64,000 nucleotides of DNA, from contig NZ_AGIK01000001.1 in NCBI RefSeq assembly GCF_000230675.1, positions 434,001-498,000 on the forward strand, read 5' to 3'. The notes under the pieces are model-generated. The model searched no databases and was not told where the DNA came from. It saw only the letters and a list, made by a program, of their open reading frames with translations. Numbering within the stretch: position 1 is the stretch's first letter; every line of letters begins with the position of its first letter. A program made the position numbers and the translations under genes. The DNA comes from Synechococcus sp. WH 8016 (GTDB lineage Bacteria > Cyanobacteriota > Cyanobacteriia > PCC-6307 > Cyanobiaceae). Shown piece after piece: positions 17,585 through 24,463 of this stretch.

Positions 17585-19516
17585 ATGAATCAACGCTGGC
17601 GTCAGATAGCCCTCTGGATTCTTCCCATAGGCGTCGCGTTGCTGCTTGTTTGGCAGCTGGTTGGCAGCGGAGCTCTGAATAACCTGCGCAGTAGCAGTCC
17701 CGCCACCAGCGAAGGCACCACTGTTGCTCCCCGAAATGCTGCTGTAGCTCGGATGAGTTACGGCCGTTTCTTGGATTACGTCGAAGCTGGTCGTGTCACG
17801 GCAGTTGATATCTATGACGGTGGCCGCAACGCGGTTGTGGAAGCGGTGGATCCCGATCTTGATAACCGGGTCCAAAGGCTCCGCGTTGACCTCCCTGGGC
17901 TGGCTCCCGAGCTGATTAACACCCTCAAGGAAGAAGGCATCAGCTTCGATATTCATCCACCGAAGACAGCTCCTCCTGCCCTTGGCATCCTCGGCAATCT
18001 TCTCTTCCCCCTGTTGCTGATCGGATCTTTGATCTTTTTGGCTCGCCGTGGCAACTCCATGCCTGGTGGTCCCGGACAAGCCATGCAGTTCGGCAAAACG
18101 AAAGCTCGTTTTGCCATGGAGGCCGATACAGGCGTCAAATTTGACGATGTGGCTGGTGTAAGCGAGGCCAAGCAAGACCTGCAAGAAGTGGTCACCTTCT
18201 TGAAACAGCCGGAGCGCTTCACTTCCGTTGGTGCTCAAATCCCTAAGGGTGTGTTGTTGGTAGGCCCTCCCGGCACAGGCAAAACCCTGCTTGCAAAGGC
18301 CATTGCTGGAGAGGCTGGAGTTCCTTTCTTCTCGCTTTCAGGTTCTGAATTCGTGGAGATGTTTGTAGGTGTTGGCGCAAGCCGTGTCCGCGATCTGTTC
18401 AAACGGGCGAAAGAGAACAGCCCATGTCTGATCTTTATTGATGAAATTGACGCGGTTGGTCGTCAGCGTGGTGCTGGAATTGGTGGTGGCAATGATGAGC
18501 GAGAGCAAACGCTGAATCAGTTGCTCACCGAGATGGATGGTTTTGAAGGAAATAGCGGAATCATCATTCTTGCGGCAACGAACAGGCCTGATGTTCTTGA
18601 CTCTGCGTTGATGCGTCCAGGTCGTTTCGATCGACAAGTCACTGTGGATGCTCCTGATATCAAAGGACGTCTTTCCATCCTTGAAGTTCATTCCAGAAAC
18701 AAAAAACTTGACGATCAGCTCACGCTCGACAGCATTGCCAGAAGAACTCCTGGATTTACAGGAGCAGACCTCGCCAACTTGTTAAATGAAGCGGCGATCC
18801 TGACAGCGAGACGTCGCAAAGACAGCATTGGAATTTCAGAAATTGATGATGCTGTTGATCGCATCATTGCTGGAATGGAAGGTCATCCCCTAACTGATGG
18901 CCGTAGCAAGCGCTTGATCGCTTATCACGAAGTTGGACATGCCTTGGTTGGCACCCTTGTGAAGGATCACGATCCTGTTCAGAAAGTCACCTTGATTCCA
19001 CGGGGACAGGCGCAAGGATTGACCTGGTTCTCACCCGATGAAGAGCAGATGCTCGTTTCGCGTGCCCAACTCAAAGCCCGCATCATGGGTGCGCTCGGCG
19101 GTCGCGCCGCGGAAGACGTGGTTTTTGGCCATTCCGAAGTCACCACCGGTGCTGGTGGCGATATCCAAATGGTGGCCTCGATGGCCCGTCAGATGGTGAC
19201 GCAATTTGGAATGAGCCAGTTGGGTCCAATGGCCCTTGAGGGTGGCAGTCAGGAAGTGTTCCTTGGCCGTGATCTGATGACGCGGAGCGATGTGTCTGAT
19301 GCCATTTCCAAGCAGATTGATGAGCAGGTGCGCTTGATCGTGATGAAGTGCTACGAAGAAACCGTTGCTCTGGTTGGTCAGCATCGGCAAGCCATGGACA
19401 AATTGGTTGAGCAATTGATCGAGCAGGAAACCATGGATGGTGATGAATTCCGAGTTGTTGTTGCCGAATTCGCCGAGATTCCTGAAAAGGAACGTTTCTC
19501 CCCCTTGCTTGCCTAA
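17585..19516 (+). CDS. ftsH: ATP-dependent zinc metalloprotease FtsH
   Basis: A 643-residue membrane-anchored AAA+ protease. Two transmembrane segments (about residues 8-27 and 134-154) flank a lumenal/periplasmic domain. Walker A GPPGTGKT is at 227-234, Walker B FIDEID at 284-289, the SRH region at [19 protein letters not shown], and the zinc site HEVGH at 448-452. In cyanobacteria FtsH hetero-oligomers degrade damaged photosystem proteins such as D1. Which paralogue this is cannot be fixed without alignment. It lies near clpP and psb29; Psb29/Thf1 is known to associate with FtsH complexes. A plus-strand terminator follows. Confidence 0.97.
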
Positions 19517-19521
19517 ATAAA

Positions 19522-19549
19522 AAGACCAGGCTTTAAAAAGCCTGGTCTT
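19522..19549 (-). terminator. Terminator-like hairpin, minus strand, for clpP
   Basis: Arms AAGACCAGGCTT (19522-19533) and AAGCCTGGTCTT (19538-19549) enclose a 4-base loop. On the minus strand the hairpin is followed by a T-rich stretch, which fits an intrinsic terminator for clpP about 50 bases after its stop. It lies just after the ftsH stop. Confidence 0.65.
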
Positions 19550-19572
19550 AAAACAATGGATTAAAACGTTTC

Positions 19573-19601
19573 AAGACCCTCATTCATGAGGGTCTTTTTT
19601 T
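19573..19601 (+). terminator. Rho-independent terminator after ftsH
   Basis: Arms AAGACCCTCAT (19573-19583) and ATGAGGGTCTT (19586-19596) form an almost loop-less palindromic hairpin (probably opened at its tip to ATTCAT), followed by a run of seven Ts. This is a classical plus-strand intrinsic terminator for ftsH. Its end touches the clpP stop codon. Confidence 0.85.
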
Positions 19602-20190
19602 ATACGGAGCGGACAGGGCTCTTATCAATCACGTTATCAATCAAGCCATATTCCATCGCCTGTTGTGGAGACATAAAGAAATCACGGTCCGTATCGGCTT
19701 GGATTTTGTCTAGGGGTTGACCAGTGCGGTCCGAGAGTTCGTGATTCAGGCGATCTTTCAGAAACAAAATCTCATCGGCTTGGATTCGAATATCACTGGC
19801 CTGACCACTTGCACCACCTAAGGGCTGGTGAATCATGATCCGTGAGTGCTGCAAGCTGCTGCGCTTTCCTTTGGCACCGGCGCAAAGCAGGAAGGCCCCC
19901 ATGCTTGCAGCAAGGCCAACACAGACGGTGTGCACATCTGGTTTGATGTGCTGCATCGTGTCAAAAATCCCCAGGCCGTCGTAAACCGAGCCACCTGGAG
20001 AATTGACATATAGGAAGATTTCTTTTTCCGGGTCTTCCGCTTCAAGAAATAGCAGCTGTGCAACGATTCGATTGGCGGAATCACTGGTGACAGGCTCACC
20101 CAAGAAAATGATTCTCTCTCTTAAGAGACGAGAATAAATATCAAAAGCTCTTTCTCCTCGTCCAGACTCCTCGATCACGATCGGGATCAT
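19600..20190 (-). CDS. clpP: ATP-dependent Clp protease proteolytic subunit
   Basis: A 196-residue serine peptidase of the Clp complex. The catalytic triad is visible: Ser96 (GLAASMGAF), His121 ([10 protein letters not shown]) and Asp170 ([12 protein letters not shown]). It is therefore an active ClpP rather than the inactive ClpR. The start [23 protein letters not shown] is the usual cyanobacterial N-terminus; an upstream frame to 20229 would add 13 unconserved residues. It is convergent with ftsH and divergent from psb29, with 81 bases between starts. Confidence 0.95.
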
Positions 20191-20271
20191 GTTGCATAGC
20201 ACCAGTTGGAACAATCCTAACGGCGGCATCAGCGGCGCTATGGTCTTAATTCAAAGTGGGGTGGAAGGACC

Positions 20272-21015
20272 TTGACGGATCAACGGACGATCGCTGACAG
20301 CAAGCGTGCCTTTCACACAGCCTTTCCTTACGTGATTCCGTCCCTGTACAGGAGAACGGCTGATGAGCTCCTGGTTGAGCTGCATCTTCTTAGTCACCAG
20401 CAGCATTTCAAGAGCGATGCCCTGTTTGCTGTTGGCTTGCGTCAGGTGTTCCAGGCGTTCACACAGGGCTACAAACCGGAAGCACACCTCGATGAGCTGT
20501 ATGCGGCCATTTGCTCCAGCAATGGTTTTGATCCGGAGGCTTTGAAACAGCTGGCAGAGGGTTCAACCTCGGCTGTTTCTGGTCACACCATCAGCGAAGT
20601 GCGTGAATGGCTCTCCAATCGCGGAGCTGGGGCTCCAGAGCCCTTAGCGTCCGGTATCTCGAGTGTGGGCGGTGATTCATTTCACTACTCGCGTTTGATG
20701 GCTGTGGGCTTGTTGAGTTTGCTCTCATCCGCTCAAGGTGGTGAGCCCTCAAATCCCGACGAACTCAAAACCCTTGCCCATGAAATTGGTGAGCAACTAG
20801 GTCTGTCCAAGCCACGCTTGGACAAGGACCTCACCTTATACACGTCCAATCTTGAAAAGATGGCTCAAGCGGTGGAACTCATTGAAGAAACCTTGGCCGC
20901 AGAACGTCGCAAACGGGACCGTCAGGCGGCTGATTCTCAAGCGATTGACTCAAAGGCAGAGGAGTCTCAATCTGAGTCCTCTGATGGGTCAGCTGCGGAC
21001 GAGAGCACTAACTGA
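20272..21015 (+). CDS. psb29: Photosystem II biogenesis protein Psb29 / Thf1
   Basis: A 247-residue protein matching Psb29 (Thylakoid formation 1). The N-terminal signature TIADSKRAFHTAFPYVIPSLYRRTADELLVELHLL is intact. The C-terminus has a helical segment followed by a charged, low-complexity tail rich in Ser, Glu and Asp. It appears to start with TTG, preceded by GGAAGGA, and there is no in-frame ATG before the conserved region. Psb29 takes part in PSII repair and stabilises FtsH complexes; ftsH lies 0.75 kb away beyond clpP. Its last 49 bases overlap the convergent 493-residue gene. Confidence 0.93.
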   Translation: MTDQRTIADSKRAFHTAFPYVIPSLYRRTADELLVELHLLSHQQHFKSDALFAVGLRQVFQAFTQGYKPEAHLDELYAAICSSNGFDPEALKQLAEGSTSAVSGHTISEVREWLSNRGAGAPEPLASGISSVGGDSFHYSRLMAVGLLSLLSSAQGGEPSNPDELKTLAHEIGEQLGLSKPRLDKDLTLYTSNLEKMAQAVELIEETLAAERRKRDRQAADSQAIDSKAEESQSESSDGSAADESTN

Positions 21016-22448
21016 CCACGGATCTCCCACCATGCTTGCTGGCCTGATGTTTTCAGGTTGGCTGAGACAATCGCCGGTTTGATTTGAAGGTGGAGTGTAT
21101 CGGCCTGCTTCAGAAGCGCAGGCCACGCTCCATTCATCAGTCCTAATGCCACGAGATTGCGTGGTCGGGCATGGAGCTTCAGGGCTGAATCCGAGGCAGC
21201 AGGAAGTGTTTGATAGAACGGTTTTGTGTCTGGAAGACTTGCGAGTCCGGCACTCAAAAGGGGCAGCGTGCCGGGCTTTTGCAACCAACGCCAACCCCCC
21301 ACGATTTTGTTTTGTCCTCCGCGCTGATCTTTCCAAATCACAGCATCCGTTTTTTTGTCTTTGTCTTGCTTTGAGGTTGGCGTTTGCGATGGCGTTGGAG
21401 ATGGCTTTGGCGTGGAGCGTTGAAAGCCGCGTTCCTCTAAACGGGTACTCACGCGATCAAAGACTGTTGTCCAGGCGGCAGCACCTCCAGGCAAGGGTGC
21501 CTGAAATTGCAGTCCCGCTCGATAGGCCCCTTTTGTTTGCTGCTGTAATCGCAGTGAAAACGGCGAAAGCGCAAGTCTCGATCGGATTGCTTGATTCACT
21601 CCGTACTGAGATTCCAAGGGCTCTTGGATGATTTGGCGACTCAACAGTGTGCCCAGGATCAAATCAACACGGGCTCCATGCACTTCAAGAAGGCTGGCTT
21701 TATCAAAGTCAGGTGGCTTTTGACGATCAGACACTGAAAAATTCCAACCCTGTTTGGGTTGGGTTGCTGCAAGTGCGATCGAGCGATCGCCAACGACGCC
21801 ACCCCAATGCAGTGTGTTGCCATGAAGGCGAAGGGCAAGGCAGCCGTGACTTCCTTGCTGAAGCAAGGGAGCTGTTGTTCCGCTGATCGCAGCTAGAGCA
21901 TCACTGGTCCAAAACACGGCTGGAGCCTGTGCAAGCTGCTGCATACAGCGTTTTTGGAGCGATTTCGGTTGAGCAGGCAGCTCGGATTGGCGTTCAAGTC
22001 GTTGGATGAGTTGTTGACGATGCAGCTCATCGGAGCCAAGCAACGTCAGTCCCGACACTTGGTGTTTGCGTAGATTTTTCGTATCAGTGCCGAGCAGTTG
22101 ATCCGGAAGAATCAAATAGGCATCGCCGTCTTCTGACCAACCCTGCCACCAGATCGACCGCCCTTGCCGCTTCCATAAGTTGCCAGCACGGAGGAGACCC
22201 AGTCTTTGGTTCCAAAGCTTGGGGACGGGTCGTTTTGAATCCCCATGAAACGACTGCATCAAACTGAACGCCCCTGAGATGCGGCCCAGTGATGCAGGGG
22301 GTCCATCGTCTTGACGTGATGGCTGATTCAGAATCACGCCCATCAAACCTGCCAATAAAACAGTCCCTAAACCCGATGCAGTGACGGGTAGGGACTGAAC
22401 GATGGATCGGTATGTGGAGATTTTCAGGAGTGCGTCAGTTGCGGTCAC
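20967..22448 (-). CDS. Hypothetical protein, N-terminally membrane anchored, petN-linked
   Basis: A 493-residue protein I do not recognise. It has one N-terminal hydrophobic segment (about residues 18-41, LPVTASGLGTVLLAGLMGVIL), then a long soluble region with no cysteine-rich, nucleotide-binding or protease motif that I can see. A Pro/Thr/Ser/Lys-rich linker occurs around residue 340. It may be exposed to the lumen or periplasm. It probably starts with GTG at 22448, 14 bases before the end of the 49-residue gene upstream, suggesting translational coupling in a petN-led group. Its 3' end overlaps psb29 by 49 bases. The length and uninterrupted frame support a real gene. Confidence 0.75.
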   Translation of the reverse strand: MTATDALLKISTYRSIVQSLPVTASGLGTVLLAGLMGVILNQPSRQDDGPPASLGRISGAFSLMQSFHGDSKRPVPKLWNQRLGLLRAGNLWKRQGRSIWWQGWSEDGDAYLILPDQLLGTDTKNLRKHQVSGLTLLGSDELHRQQLIQRLERQSELPAQPKSLQKRCMQQLAQAPAVFWTSDALAAISGTTAPLLQQGSHGCLALRLHGNTLHWGGVVGDRSIALAATQPKQGWNFSVSDRQKPPDFDKASLLEVHGARVDLILGTLLSRQIIQEPLESQYGVNQAIRSRLALSPFSLRLQQQTKGAYRAGLQFQAPLPGGAAAWTTVFDRVSTRLEERGFQRSTPKPSPTPSQTPTSKQDKDKKTDAVIWKDQRGGQNKIVGGWRWLQKPGTLPLLSAGLASLPDTKPFYQTLPAASDSALKLHARPRNLVALGLMNGAWPALLKQADTLHLQIKPAIVSANLKTSGQQAWWEIRGQLVLSSAADPSEDSD

Positions 22449-22584
22449 GAGAACGCCTGCGACGACGATCTTTCCACTCGATGGTGGAAAGGTAAGCGAC
22501 TATCACGCTGACAAAGACCAACAGAACCGCAGCGGTCATCGCCAATCCCTGACTGACGATGGGAGCTTGCAGTGCTTCGTTCAC
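22435..22584 (-). CDS. Small single-helix membrane protein between petN and a 493-aa gene
   Basis: A 49-residue frame read directly from the sequence, GTG start one base after the petN stop. It encodes a short amphipathic beginning (VNEALQAPIVSQGLAM), one clear transmembrane helix (about residues 12-33) and a strongly basic tail (KDRRRRRSRDRN). It overlaps the next gene by 14 bases in another frame. The architecture (single helix, positive cytoplasmic tail) and its tight coupling to petN suggest a thylakoid small protein. I cannot match it to a named cytochrome b6f or photosystem subunit. Confidence 0.6.
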   Translation of the reverse strand: MNEALQAPIVSQGLAMTAAVLLVFVSVIVAYLSTIEWKDRRRRRSRDRN

Positions 22585-22585
22585 T

Positions 22586-22687
22586 TCAGAAATTCAGGGT
22601 GCCATCACCGTTGCGGCCCCAGACCACCATCGCGATCGAGAAACTGAAGACAGCAGCCAGTGATGCCCAGGCAATCGTGAACAGCAT
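22586..22687 (-). CDS. petN: Cytochrome b6-f complex subunit 8 (PetN)
   Basis: A 33-residue protein found by direct translation. It reads [19 protein letters not shown] followed by [14 protein letters not shown], which is the almost invariant PetN sequence: one transmembrane helix with the WGRNG end. PetN is a small subunit at the edge of the cytochrome b6f complex that links the two photosystems. A 49-residue unknown gene starts one base after its stop. It is divergent from clpS with 73 bases between the starts. Confidence 0.95.
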
Positions 22688-22760
22688 TGAAATAACGCTT
22701 GAATGCCATGAGTTTACCTAGGTTCCCCCTCGGAACTGACTGGTTGATTCATTACTTCTT

Positions 22761-23057
22761 ATGACTATGGCAACCCCTGGAACGGCAAGCGTCCTTCAAC
22801 CGGAACGCACAACCCTGCGCTACCCCAATGCCAGAGTCATCGTTCTCAACGATGACGTCAATACGTTTGAACACGTGGTTGAGTGTTTATGCAAAATCAT
22901 CCCTGGGATGAATAGCGATAAGGCTTGGACACTTGCCCATCAAATCGATGGTGAAGGGTCTGCTGAAGTGTGGGCAGGCCCCCTTGAACCCGCAGAGCTT
23001 TACCACCAACAACTCAGCAGCGAGGGTCTCACGATGGCTCCGTTGGAACGCAATTAG
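22761..23057 (+). CDS. clpS: ATP-dependent Clp protease adaptor ClpS
   Basis: A 98-residue N-end-rule adaptor that delivers substrates to ClpAP/ClpCP. The conserved core VIVLNDDVNTFEHVVECLCKIIPGM and the helix AWTLAHQIDGEGSAEVWAGPLEPAELYHQQL are typical. The N-terminal extension of about 25 residues is usual for cyanobacterial ClpS. An ATG two codons in (22767) is also possible. The stop is followed after 5 bases by the PucC-like gene. Confidence 0.93.
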   Translation: MTMATPGTASVLQPERTTLRYPNARVIVLNDDVNTFEHVVECLCKIIPGMNSDKAWTLAHQIDGEGSAEVWAGPLEPAELYHQQLSSEGLTMAPLERN

Positions 23058-23062
23058 TGCCC

Positions 23063-24463
23063 ATGGCCGCTTCCATTGAATTCAACGACTTTCAAGGTCT
23101 CCGTTGGCCAACCCTGTTGCGATTAAGTCTCTTTCAGGCTTGTCTTGGAACCCTTGCGGTGTTGTTCACTGGGACCTTCAATCGGATTCTGATCACAGAG
23201 TTGGCTTTTCCTGCCTTGCTGGCGGGTGGAGGGTTGGGATTTGAGCAACTGGTGTCTCCAGCACGGGTGCTGTTCGGACATCTCAGTGATTCCCATCCCT
23301 TAATGGGAAAACATCGGACGCCCTATGTCTTGCTTGGAACCATTGCCATCTGTCTGTTGGCGATTCTGAGTGTTCCCGTCAGTTTCATGGTGAGGGAAGC
23401 CCTCGATAGTGGATCCCCGTTGGTGGCCGCTGCAGGAATTGCAGCATTTTGTGGCTTATTTGCTCTCTACGGATTAGGGACGTCTATGGCAAGTACTTCC
23501 TATTTAGCCCTTGTGATTGACCGCACAACGGAAGAACAAAGGCCTCGCTGCATCGGTGTGATTTGGGCGATGCTCACGGTTGGAATCATCGTTGGAGCGA
23601 TTGCTATCAGTCTTGCTGTCCGCTCGATCGACGGCATTTCAGATCCCGTGATTCTTCAGAGCTGGCTGCAGAAGTTCATGATTGCGATTACGTCGATCGT
23701 GATGCTGCTGGCCATTGTTTCGACCTGGGAAGTGGAGAAACCAATAACATCTGGCACTGTTCGTCCAGTTCAGGATTTGATCACACTTCAGGATGCCTGG
23801 AAGGTGGTGACTTCAAGTCGACAAATCGTGATCTTTTTTGGATTCTTAGTTTTATTCACGATGGGACTCTTTCTTCAGGATCCAATTCTGGAAAGTTTTG
23901 GTGCTGAAGTGTTTGGGATGCCTGTGTCCAAGACCACCTTGCTGAATGCTTGGTGGGGATCAGGAACCCTTGTTGGTTTACTGGTTGCTGGCTGGTTTAT
24001 CACCCCAAAACTCGGAAAGTTGGCCACTGCCCGTTTGGGTTGCTGGATGGTGATGGGCTCCTTATTTCTGTTGTTAATCAGTGGCTGGCAGCAAGCATCC
24101 GGACTTCTTCCTGTGGTGATGGTGCTGTTTGGTTTAGCTGCAGGCGTTGGCACCAACAGTGCACTCACCTTGATGCTGGATCTCACCTTGCCCGCCATGG
24201 CAGGAACCTTCGTGGGCATTTGGGGTTTAGCGCAAGCCCTCTCTCGGGGCTTTGGCAAGGTTGTCGGCGGTGGGTTGCTCGATCTTGGTCGACAACTTCT
24301 TCCCAATGCTGGACCAATGGCTGGTTATGGCTTGGTGTTTTCGATTGAAATTCTGGTGATGGCGAGCGCTTTGATTGTGCTGAATCAGCTCAGTGTCGGT
24401 CAATTCAGAGAATCCACCACACAACGCCTCGACATGGTGTTGATGGCCGAAATCGATGGTTAA
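23063..24463 (+). CDS. PucC-like major facilitator (BCH/PucC family)
   Basis: A 466-residue protein with about twelve transmembrane helices. It shows the PucC/LhaA hallmarks FNRILITELAFPALLAGGGLGFEQLVSPARVLFGHLSDSHPLMGKHRTPYV and, near the end, AGTFVGIWGLAQALSRGFGKVVGGGLLDLGR. The family is linked to assembly of light-harvesting complexes or transport of (bacterio)chlorophyll-type pigments. A GTG overlapping the clpS stop could add two residues. It is probably co-transcribed with clpS and ends 1 base before a convergent small gene. Confidence 0.88.
   Translation: MAASIEFNDFQGLRWPTLLRLSLFQACLGTLAVLFTGTFNRILITELAFPALLAGGGLGFEQLVSPARVLFGHLSDSHPLMGKHRTPYVLLGTIAICLLAILSVPVSFMVREALDSGSPLVAAAGIAAFCGLFALYGLGTSMASTSYLALVIDRTTEEQRPRCIGVIWAMLTVGIIVGAIAISLAVRSIDGISDPVILQSWLQKFMIAITSIVMLLAIVSTWEVEKPITSGTVRPVQDLITLQDAWKVVTSSRQIVIFFGFLVLFTMGLFLQDPILESFGAEVFGMPVSKTTLLNAWWGSGTLVGLLVAGWFITPKLGKLATARLGCWMVMGSLFLLLISGWQQASGLLPVVMVLFGLAAGVGTNSALTLMLDLTLPAMAGTFVGIWGLAQALSRGFGKVVGGGLLDLGRQLLPNAGPMAGYGLVFSIEILVMASALIVLNQLSVGQFRESTTQRLDMVLMAEIDG

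Follow-up and report, generated by a model that had tools for sequence, protein, structure and literature searches.

In the genome of Synechococcus sp. WH 8016, petN, encoding subunit VIII of the cytochrome b6f complex, is followed after a single base by a gene for a 49-aa membrane protein, here called X49. Both genes lie in the 64,000-nt stretch analyzed in this study (the window; NZ_AGIK01000001.1, positions 434,001-498,000; coordinates below are window-relative). Judged from genome sequences, X49 represents a genuine, near-universal family of small membrane proteins of oxygenic cyanobacteria. Its function is probably tied to photosynthesis and not to b6f as such, and we give an even chance to its being a photosynthesis-specific accessory protein of cytochrome b6f. 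The two genes are located as follows.

22586-22687, minus strand: petN, cytochrome b6f subunit VIII, 33 aa (PF03742 and NF002709)
22435-22584, minus strand: X49, 49-aa single-span membrane protein, GTG start (open reading frame list and family profile)

The PetN product belonged to PF03742 with a score of 55.1 bits against the curated cut-off of 20.3 bits, and scored 85.4 bits with the NCBIfam model NF002709. The open reading frame list placed the start of X49 one base (22585) past the petN stop codon. X49 was 92-98% identical in seven close relatives, and a single-sequence search detected it in 47 of 60 relatives. A profile built from 21 sequences then found X49 in 145 of 146 genomes of the class (at least 95% completeness requested), a spread equal to that of PetN, which was found in 144 genomes of the same sample. 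In a looser sample including less complete genomes, X49 was present in 373 of 388; the two samples overlapped heavily and their counts are not independent. At most 17 candidates per genome were scored in the larger search, and a miss there is weaker evidence than a match. UCYN-A, which has photosystem I and b6f but lacks photosystem II, was not seen among these class-wide samples. When the whole phylum was sampled (n = 98), X49 was detected in 41 of 42 genomes of the class and in none of the 56 genomes of the other classes, which are non-photosynthetic. The first-pass annotation, made from the DNA letters of the window, had proposed the 49-aa frame as a gene, and this was borne out by its spread and by its retained place beside petN: the frame is present in close relatives and beyond, and its order is not scrambled there.

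Among the 15 genomes of the larger sample in which X49 was missed, 11 also gave no petN match. Ten of these were drafts of at least 380 contigs, and the other, G323, had 20 contigs; double misses are the expected pattern, because the absence of one linked locus from an assembly would remove petN and X49 together. The remaining four were G360, in which the petN match ended at an apparent contig end, G197, a 750-contig draft, and the spheroid bodies of Epithemia turgida (EtSB, G436) and Rhopalodia gibberula (RgSB, G464). The two spheroid bodies were the only single-contig genomes of the sample lacking X49.

An alignment of 49 class-wide sequences of 42-63 aa showed that one Y, one W and one R were invariant, and that one D and one L were retained in 48 of the 49. 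The consensus was A-x-x-L-L-x-x-V-T-G-G-V-x-Y-L-T-x-x-E-W-R-D-R-R-R, and the WH 8016 protein has the family features, namely a single span and, after it, the motif YL[TS]xx[ED]W[RK]D[RK]RR. The net charge of the 49 sequences averaged -1 on the N-terminal side of the span and +5.6 on the C-terminal side. From this charge distribution and the positive-inside rule, the tail should be cytoplasmic, with a lumenal N-terminus; the strongly conserved basic motif Y-L-(T/S)-x-x-(E/D)-W-(R/K)-D-(R/K)-R-R would then come immediately past the membrane on its cytoplasmic side. X49 gave no Pfam match above cut-off and no NCBIfam match; the candidates DUF6338, DUF202 and DUF1146 were weak Pfam matches, all below their cut-offs. 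No relevant PDB chain was matched by the single sequence or by the profile, a chain left unmodelled in the solved structures being still possible, and the identification of X49 with a known photosynthetic subunit was dropped after these three resources had yielded nothing. None of 38 pattern matches in viral contigs was confirmed as a cyanophage X49.

Of the 144 genomes possessing both genes, 127 had X49 on the petN strand and 3' of petN, with a median distance of 37 bases (range, 3-684) between the profile ends. As far as these genomes tell, the linkage is old and very deep. Outside the family of WH 8016, 32 loci were compared; these had been picked for the petN-X49 pair and measure the other neighbours only. 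The commonest other neighbour was common to eight of them and the next to four. A family of open frames of 131-192 aa, divergent from petN and hydrophobic where the sequence was seen, was noted at eight of the 32 loci (L041, L110, L135, L140, L150, L165, L169 and L171). A set of 80 named loci, drawn almost entirely from the Synechococcus/Prochlorococcus/Cyanobium clade, contained both petN and X49 in 79 cases, with the one-base spacing in 12 of the 79. In 17 of the 144 genomes, X49 was not linked to petN. Six of the 17 belonged to genus g22 of family f16, and in all six X49 was positioned directly 3' of petE, the gene for plastocyanin; in one of the six, petE was matched to the plastocyanin Pfam family. 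As a minor observation, three X49 matches surrounded one petN in G140 (C4:529297-530222), one of which lay on the opposite strand and contained a stop codon.

The spheroid bodies allow the requirements of b6f in respiration to be separated, by a natural experiment, from those in photosynthesis. According to the accessible part of PMC5638926, EtSB lacks most photosystem genes, and none that are functional were found in RgSB. Both genomes nevertheless retained petN above the Pfam cut-off as an intact 29-aa frame, and the two petN copies differed synonymously at seven codons and non-synonymously at one. In the free-living Cyanothece sp. PCC 8801 (G431), an intact petN is directly followed by a complete X49. 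At the same place in EtSB, a relic of X49 was left, broken by several insertions and deletions into pieces in different frames; its longest stretches without a stop were 28-33 codons. In RgSB, a stop codon occurred right after the start position, the first part carried deletions, and three motif residues, the invariant W with the R and D next to it, were replaced. No other copy of X49 above threshold was found in either genome in the 388-genome search.

X49 was therefore lost together with the photosystems in two of two photosystem-less genomes (photosystem loss as given in the part of PMC5638926 consulted), the behavior expected of a photosystem subunit, and in these two genomes it was not retained although petN stayed intact, whereas a b6f subunit would be expected wherever the complex is kept. 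Excerpts of PMC11070190 state that such endosymbionts retain complete respiratory electron transport, and the portion of PMC12903740 available lists the lost core proteins as those of photosystem I, photosystem II and the antenna, with no b6f class but with 348 'others'. Since X49 has decayed beside an intact petN, b6f as such probably has no need of it. The simplest conclusion, as far as sequences allow, would be that respiratory b6f can do without X49, which becomes necessary once photosynthesis operates. The first-pass annotation had read the tight coupling to petN as suggesting a part in the assembly or function of b6f for X49, for the protein encoded after it, or for both; for X49, the proposal in this general form was not supported by the two spheroid bodies. 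The retention of X49 by nearly all photosynthetic cyanobacteria sampled and its decay in two non-photosynthetic ones suggested that it is likely important. All 38 genomes in an order-level search around G087, aimed at ones lacking photosystem II, contained PsbH.

In Synechocystis sp. PCC 6803, a corresponding gene has been listed. A survey of small Synechocystis proteins (PMC5126843) places petN (sml0004) at 160004-160093 and sgl0002, a 49-aa hypothetical protein without an Arabidopsis match, at 159812-159961 on the same strand, i.e., 42 bases 3' of petN by the printed coordinates. Sgl0002 is the counterpart of X49 by position, length and family spread, sequences not having been compared under that name. 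The view that the 49-aa gene is easily missed by annotation was thus right only in part, as this counterpart does carry a locus name, albeit as a hypothetical protein. In a microarray meta-analysis (PMC4770689, seen in part), sgl0002 fell in a 43-gene cluster containing 15 photosystem II, 8 photosystem I, 3 b6f and 12 phycobilisome genes; the same article mentions the single hydrophobic stretch of Sgl0002 and the proximity of its gene to petN. One of these two articles suggests a link to photosynthesis. The co-expression of sgl0002 and its position near petN are therefore already known. In the partly accessible literature searched, no assigned function of Sgl0002 or X49 was found, and the universality of X49, the breadth of its linkage, the petE link and the decay in the endosymbionts were not found in print, supplements not being covered.

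The even chance given to X49 as a photosynthesis-specific accessory protein of b6f reflects that this reading satisfies the linkage, the decay and the co-expression all three. The links to petN and petE place X49 at the b6f-plastocyanin segment, its decay in EtSB and RgSB ties it to photosynthesis, and the co-expression of sgl0002 fits either a b6f accessory or a photosystem factor. X49 would matter only when b6f runs between the photosystems, and would bind or act on the complex at the cytoplasmic side. It might serve a photosynthesis-specific maturation step, e.g., loading or protecting the chlorophyll a or the carotenoid of b6f, or might couple and regulate photosynthetic electron flow. The sequences show the gene itself, how widely it occurs, its linkage to petN and its decay in the two spheroid bodies; we infer a joint transcript of petN and X49, as we do the location, partner and action of the protein. 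Several observations weigh against an accessory role at b6f. The petE link was confined to one clade and was counted as one event for that reason; the petE match of G071 was split in two, G106, also of family f16, retained the petN link, and the count of six of six leaves out G289 of the same genus. In G057 and its congener G245, X49 adjoined pam68, a photosystem II assembly gene, and a gene read from its translation as rpsO. Eight of the 17 unlinked genomes belonged to genus g29, probably Microcystis, where X49 stood by unrelated genes (four of the eight examined); in these four and in G125 it preceded a convergent gene read as ribBA, and in G144 it lay among genes taken, on reading them, to be unrelated. 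The decay in RgSB was less advanced, with 43 codons of one frame stop-free, and the intactness of the remaining b6f in the two spheroid bodies rests on the parts seen of PMC11070190 and PMC12903740. The co-expression cluster was not b6f-specific, going by the part of PMC4770689 consulted. Any physical contact between X49 and b6f is putative, and X49 matched no relevant PDB chain. Finally, decay in photosystem-less symbionts fits a role at the photosystems at least as well.

Such a role, whether as a small subunit or in the assembly of photosystem II or I, is a real possibility, though short of probable. Single-span proteins of about the size of X49 are typical of photosystems, and the decay beside an intact petN, the co-expression of sgl0002 mostly with photosystem II, photosystem I and phycobilisome genes (PMC4770689, in part) and the position by pam68 in G057 and G245 all agree with it. 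Sharing a transcript with petN would then be incidental, balancing the supply of the complexes, and it is this that speaks against the photosystem factor: the frequent linkage to petN and the linkage to petE in all six g22 genomes point to the b6f-plastocyanin segment, and no relevant match to the solved photosystem chains was obtained, an unmodelled chain again being possible. That X49 is a constitutive subunit or a general assembly factor of b6f appears unlikely. The petN linkage and the spread equal to that of PetN would suit it, as would the size and the span, which resemble those of PetG, PetL, PetM and PetN (single span, less than about 60 aa). X49 differs from these four in its basic cytoplasmic tail, in having no relevant match among the solved b6f chains and in decaying where petN stays, with petN differing between the two spheroid bodies by mostly synonymous codons. 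Least probable of all, in our estimate, is a job outside the electron-transport complexes, such as membrane or protease housekeeping, with the place after petN being historical. The flanking clpS, psb29 and clpP genes in the clade of WH 8016 might suggest it, but these neighbours are not conserved outside the clade, where petN is, and the only single-contig genomes without X49 were the two photosystem-less ones.

A bolder form of the accessory role at b6f, which we regard as doubtful, makes X49 an overlooked, loosely held ninth partner of the complex, perhaps of pre-thylakoid origin, used in the photosynthetic mode only and dispensable in respiration. In that form X49 might, for example, load or shield the b6f chlorophyll a, or tether b6f to a photosystem. 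The pre-thylakoid part comes solely from G104, which we take to be a thylakoid-less species. For comparison, Psb34 and Psb35 are single-span proteins, for which ssl2148 is one locus. Like X49 they are small cyanobacterial thylakoid proteins, acting in photosystem II assembly; they are encoded at different loci (ssl1498 according to a published abstract), and the comparison was made by description only.

The gene after X49 encodes a 493-aa protein, here P493. The remaining features of the locus are the following.

20967-22448, minus strand: P493, 493 aa, GTG start, N-terminal anchor and large soluble part (open reading frame list)
22435-22448, minus strand: 14-base overlap of X49 and P493 (open reading frame list)
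22761-23057, plus strand: clpS, divergent neighbour of petN (PF02617, NF009565)
20272-21015, plus strand: psb29/thf1, convergent with P493 (PF11264, TIGR03060)

The open reading frame list agreed with the first-pass annotation in the head-to-tail order petN-X49-P493 on the minus strand, the one-base spacing and the 14-base overlap. On the sequence comparisons, the X49 and P493 frames are more than chance. P493 was 82-95% identical in the seven close relatives, with a ratio of nonsynonymous to synonymous substitution rates (dN/dS) of 0.10-0.17 in six of the seven close pairs and 0.32 in the closest. Its distribution was much narrower than that of X49: it was found in 33 of 60 relatives, all of the family of WH 8016, and in 64 of the 80 named loci. 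It was missing from 10 of the 66 loci having clpS, psb29 and clpP, which retained petN-X49 with 30-139 bases between X49 and psb29. The P493 match started more than 1.2 kb past X49 in 19 of the 64 loci, and in 15 of these 19 the open frame was also more than 1 kb away (L072, L077, L093 and L095 are among the 15). It started before the X49 end in 4 of the 64; up to 23 could overlap if the first possible start codon is used. A role of P493 as a b6f factor was rejected on this distribution, and P493 is probably a separate, clade-specific passenger functionally unconnected to petN. At L055, L058 and L063, the open frame at the P493 match was 59, 150 and 86 codons long, respectively, which suggests broken copies or assembly errors.

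P493 reached no curated Pfam or NCBIfam cut-off and gave no Pfam match even at an expect value (E) of 10. Helices were predicted at residues 4-19 and 21-40, consistent with the N-terminal anchor proposed earlier. A structural model from 34 sequences, with a mean predicted local distance difference test score (pLDDT) of 85.3 and a predicted template modelling score (pTM) of 0.79, consisted of the N-terminal helices followed by a mixed helix-strand body. The fold compared with it was the TP0453 or RseB/MucB-like fold, and the matches were weak: the best Foldseek match was TP0453 (E = 7.7e-3), and VIA-align gave a Z score of 6.1 with a root-mean-square deviation of 4.7 over 166 aligned residues, a Z score that the tool calls common. 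PF11832 (DUF3352) was matched by one of the 34 P493 members at E = 0.022, short of the Pfam cut-off, and a profile-profile comparison of DUF3352 with P493 aligned 230 columns with E = 1e-4 and a probability of 58, which is weak. P493 differs from DUF3352 in staying below the cut-off, and the same genome carries a separate gene above it (G000:C3:46524-48050). P493 is a clade-specific anchored protein and possibly a distant relative of DUF3352.

In the region 17585-23057, petN-X49 was surrounded by psb29/thf1, clpS and frames read as ftsH and clpP. This neighbourhood was common in the named loci: clpS was present in 74 of the 80 and psb29 in 71, clpS, psb29 and clpP occurred together in 66, and ftsH was also present in 62 of these 66. 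As the divergent neighbour of petN, clpS was kept in Synechococcus and Prochlorococcus. P493 on the minus strand and psb29 on the plus strand converged, sharing 49 bases at their 3' ends (20967-21015). A PUCC-family gene (Pfam; 23057-24463) adjoined clpS, and a similar gene was seen in 9 of the 80 named loci; not all of the 80 extend far enough to reveal it. Consensus scans of 20200-23100 gave no sigma-70-like promoter (0 versus a mean of 1.3 in shuffles) and eight terminator-like sites (versus a mean of 3.1), three of them on the minus strand, including one within X49 at 22544-22530 and one within P493; according to the tool, such consensus matches are not evidence of function. As for RNA structure, the folding z-score at the locus was -0.10, and no Rfam match exceeded the gathering score.

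The DNA over petN and X49 was also well conserved among the seven close relatives. Five 50-base segments in 22700-22451 were 96-99% identical, versus about 75-95% for most of the flanking sequence; identity was likewise high in the first half of clpS (94-97%) and in stretches of clpP and psb29 (up to 98%, four genomes). The synonymous substitution rate (dS) in six of the seven close pairs was 0.03-0.12 for X49 and 0.14-0.25 for petN, versus 0.63-0.88 for P493; in the closest pair, the dS of P493 was 0.09. When differing synonymous sites were counted in three genomes, the fractions were 0.09-0.12 for X49 and 0.13-0.21 for petN, versus 0.31-0.60 for five other genes. In the closest genome the value for X49 was 0.21 (0.11 in another alignment), not below that of other genes, and at greater distance its synonymous sites were saturated like those of other genes. 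The low synonymous divergence of petN-X49 may come from codon bias or local recombination.

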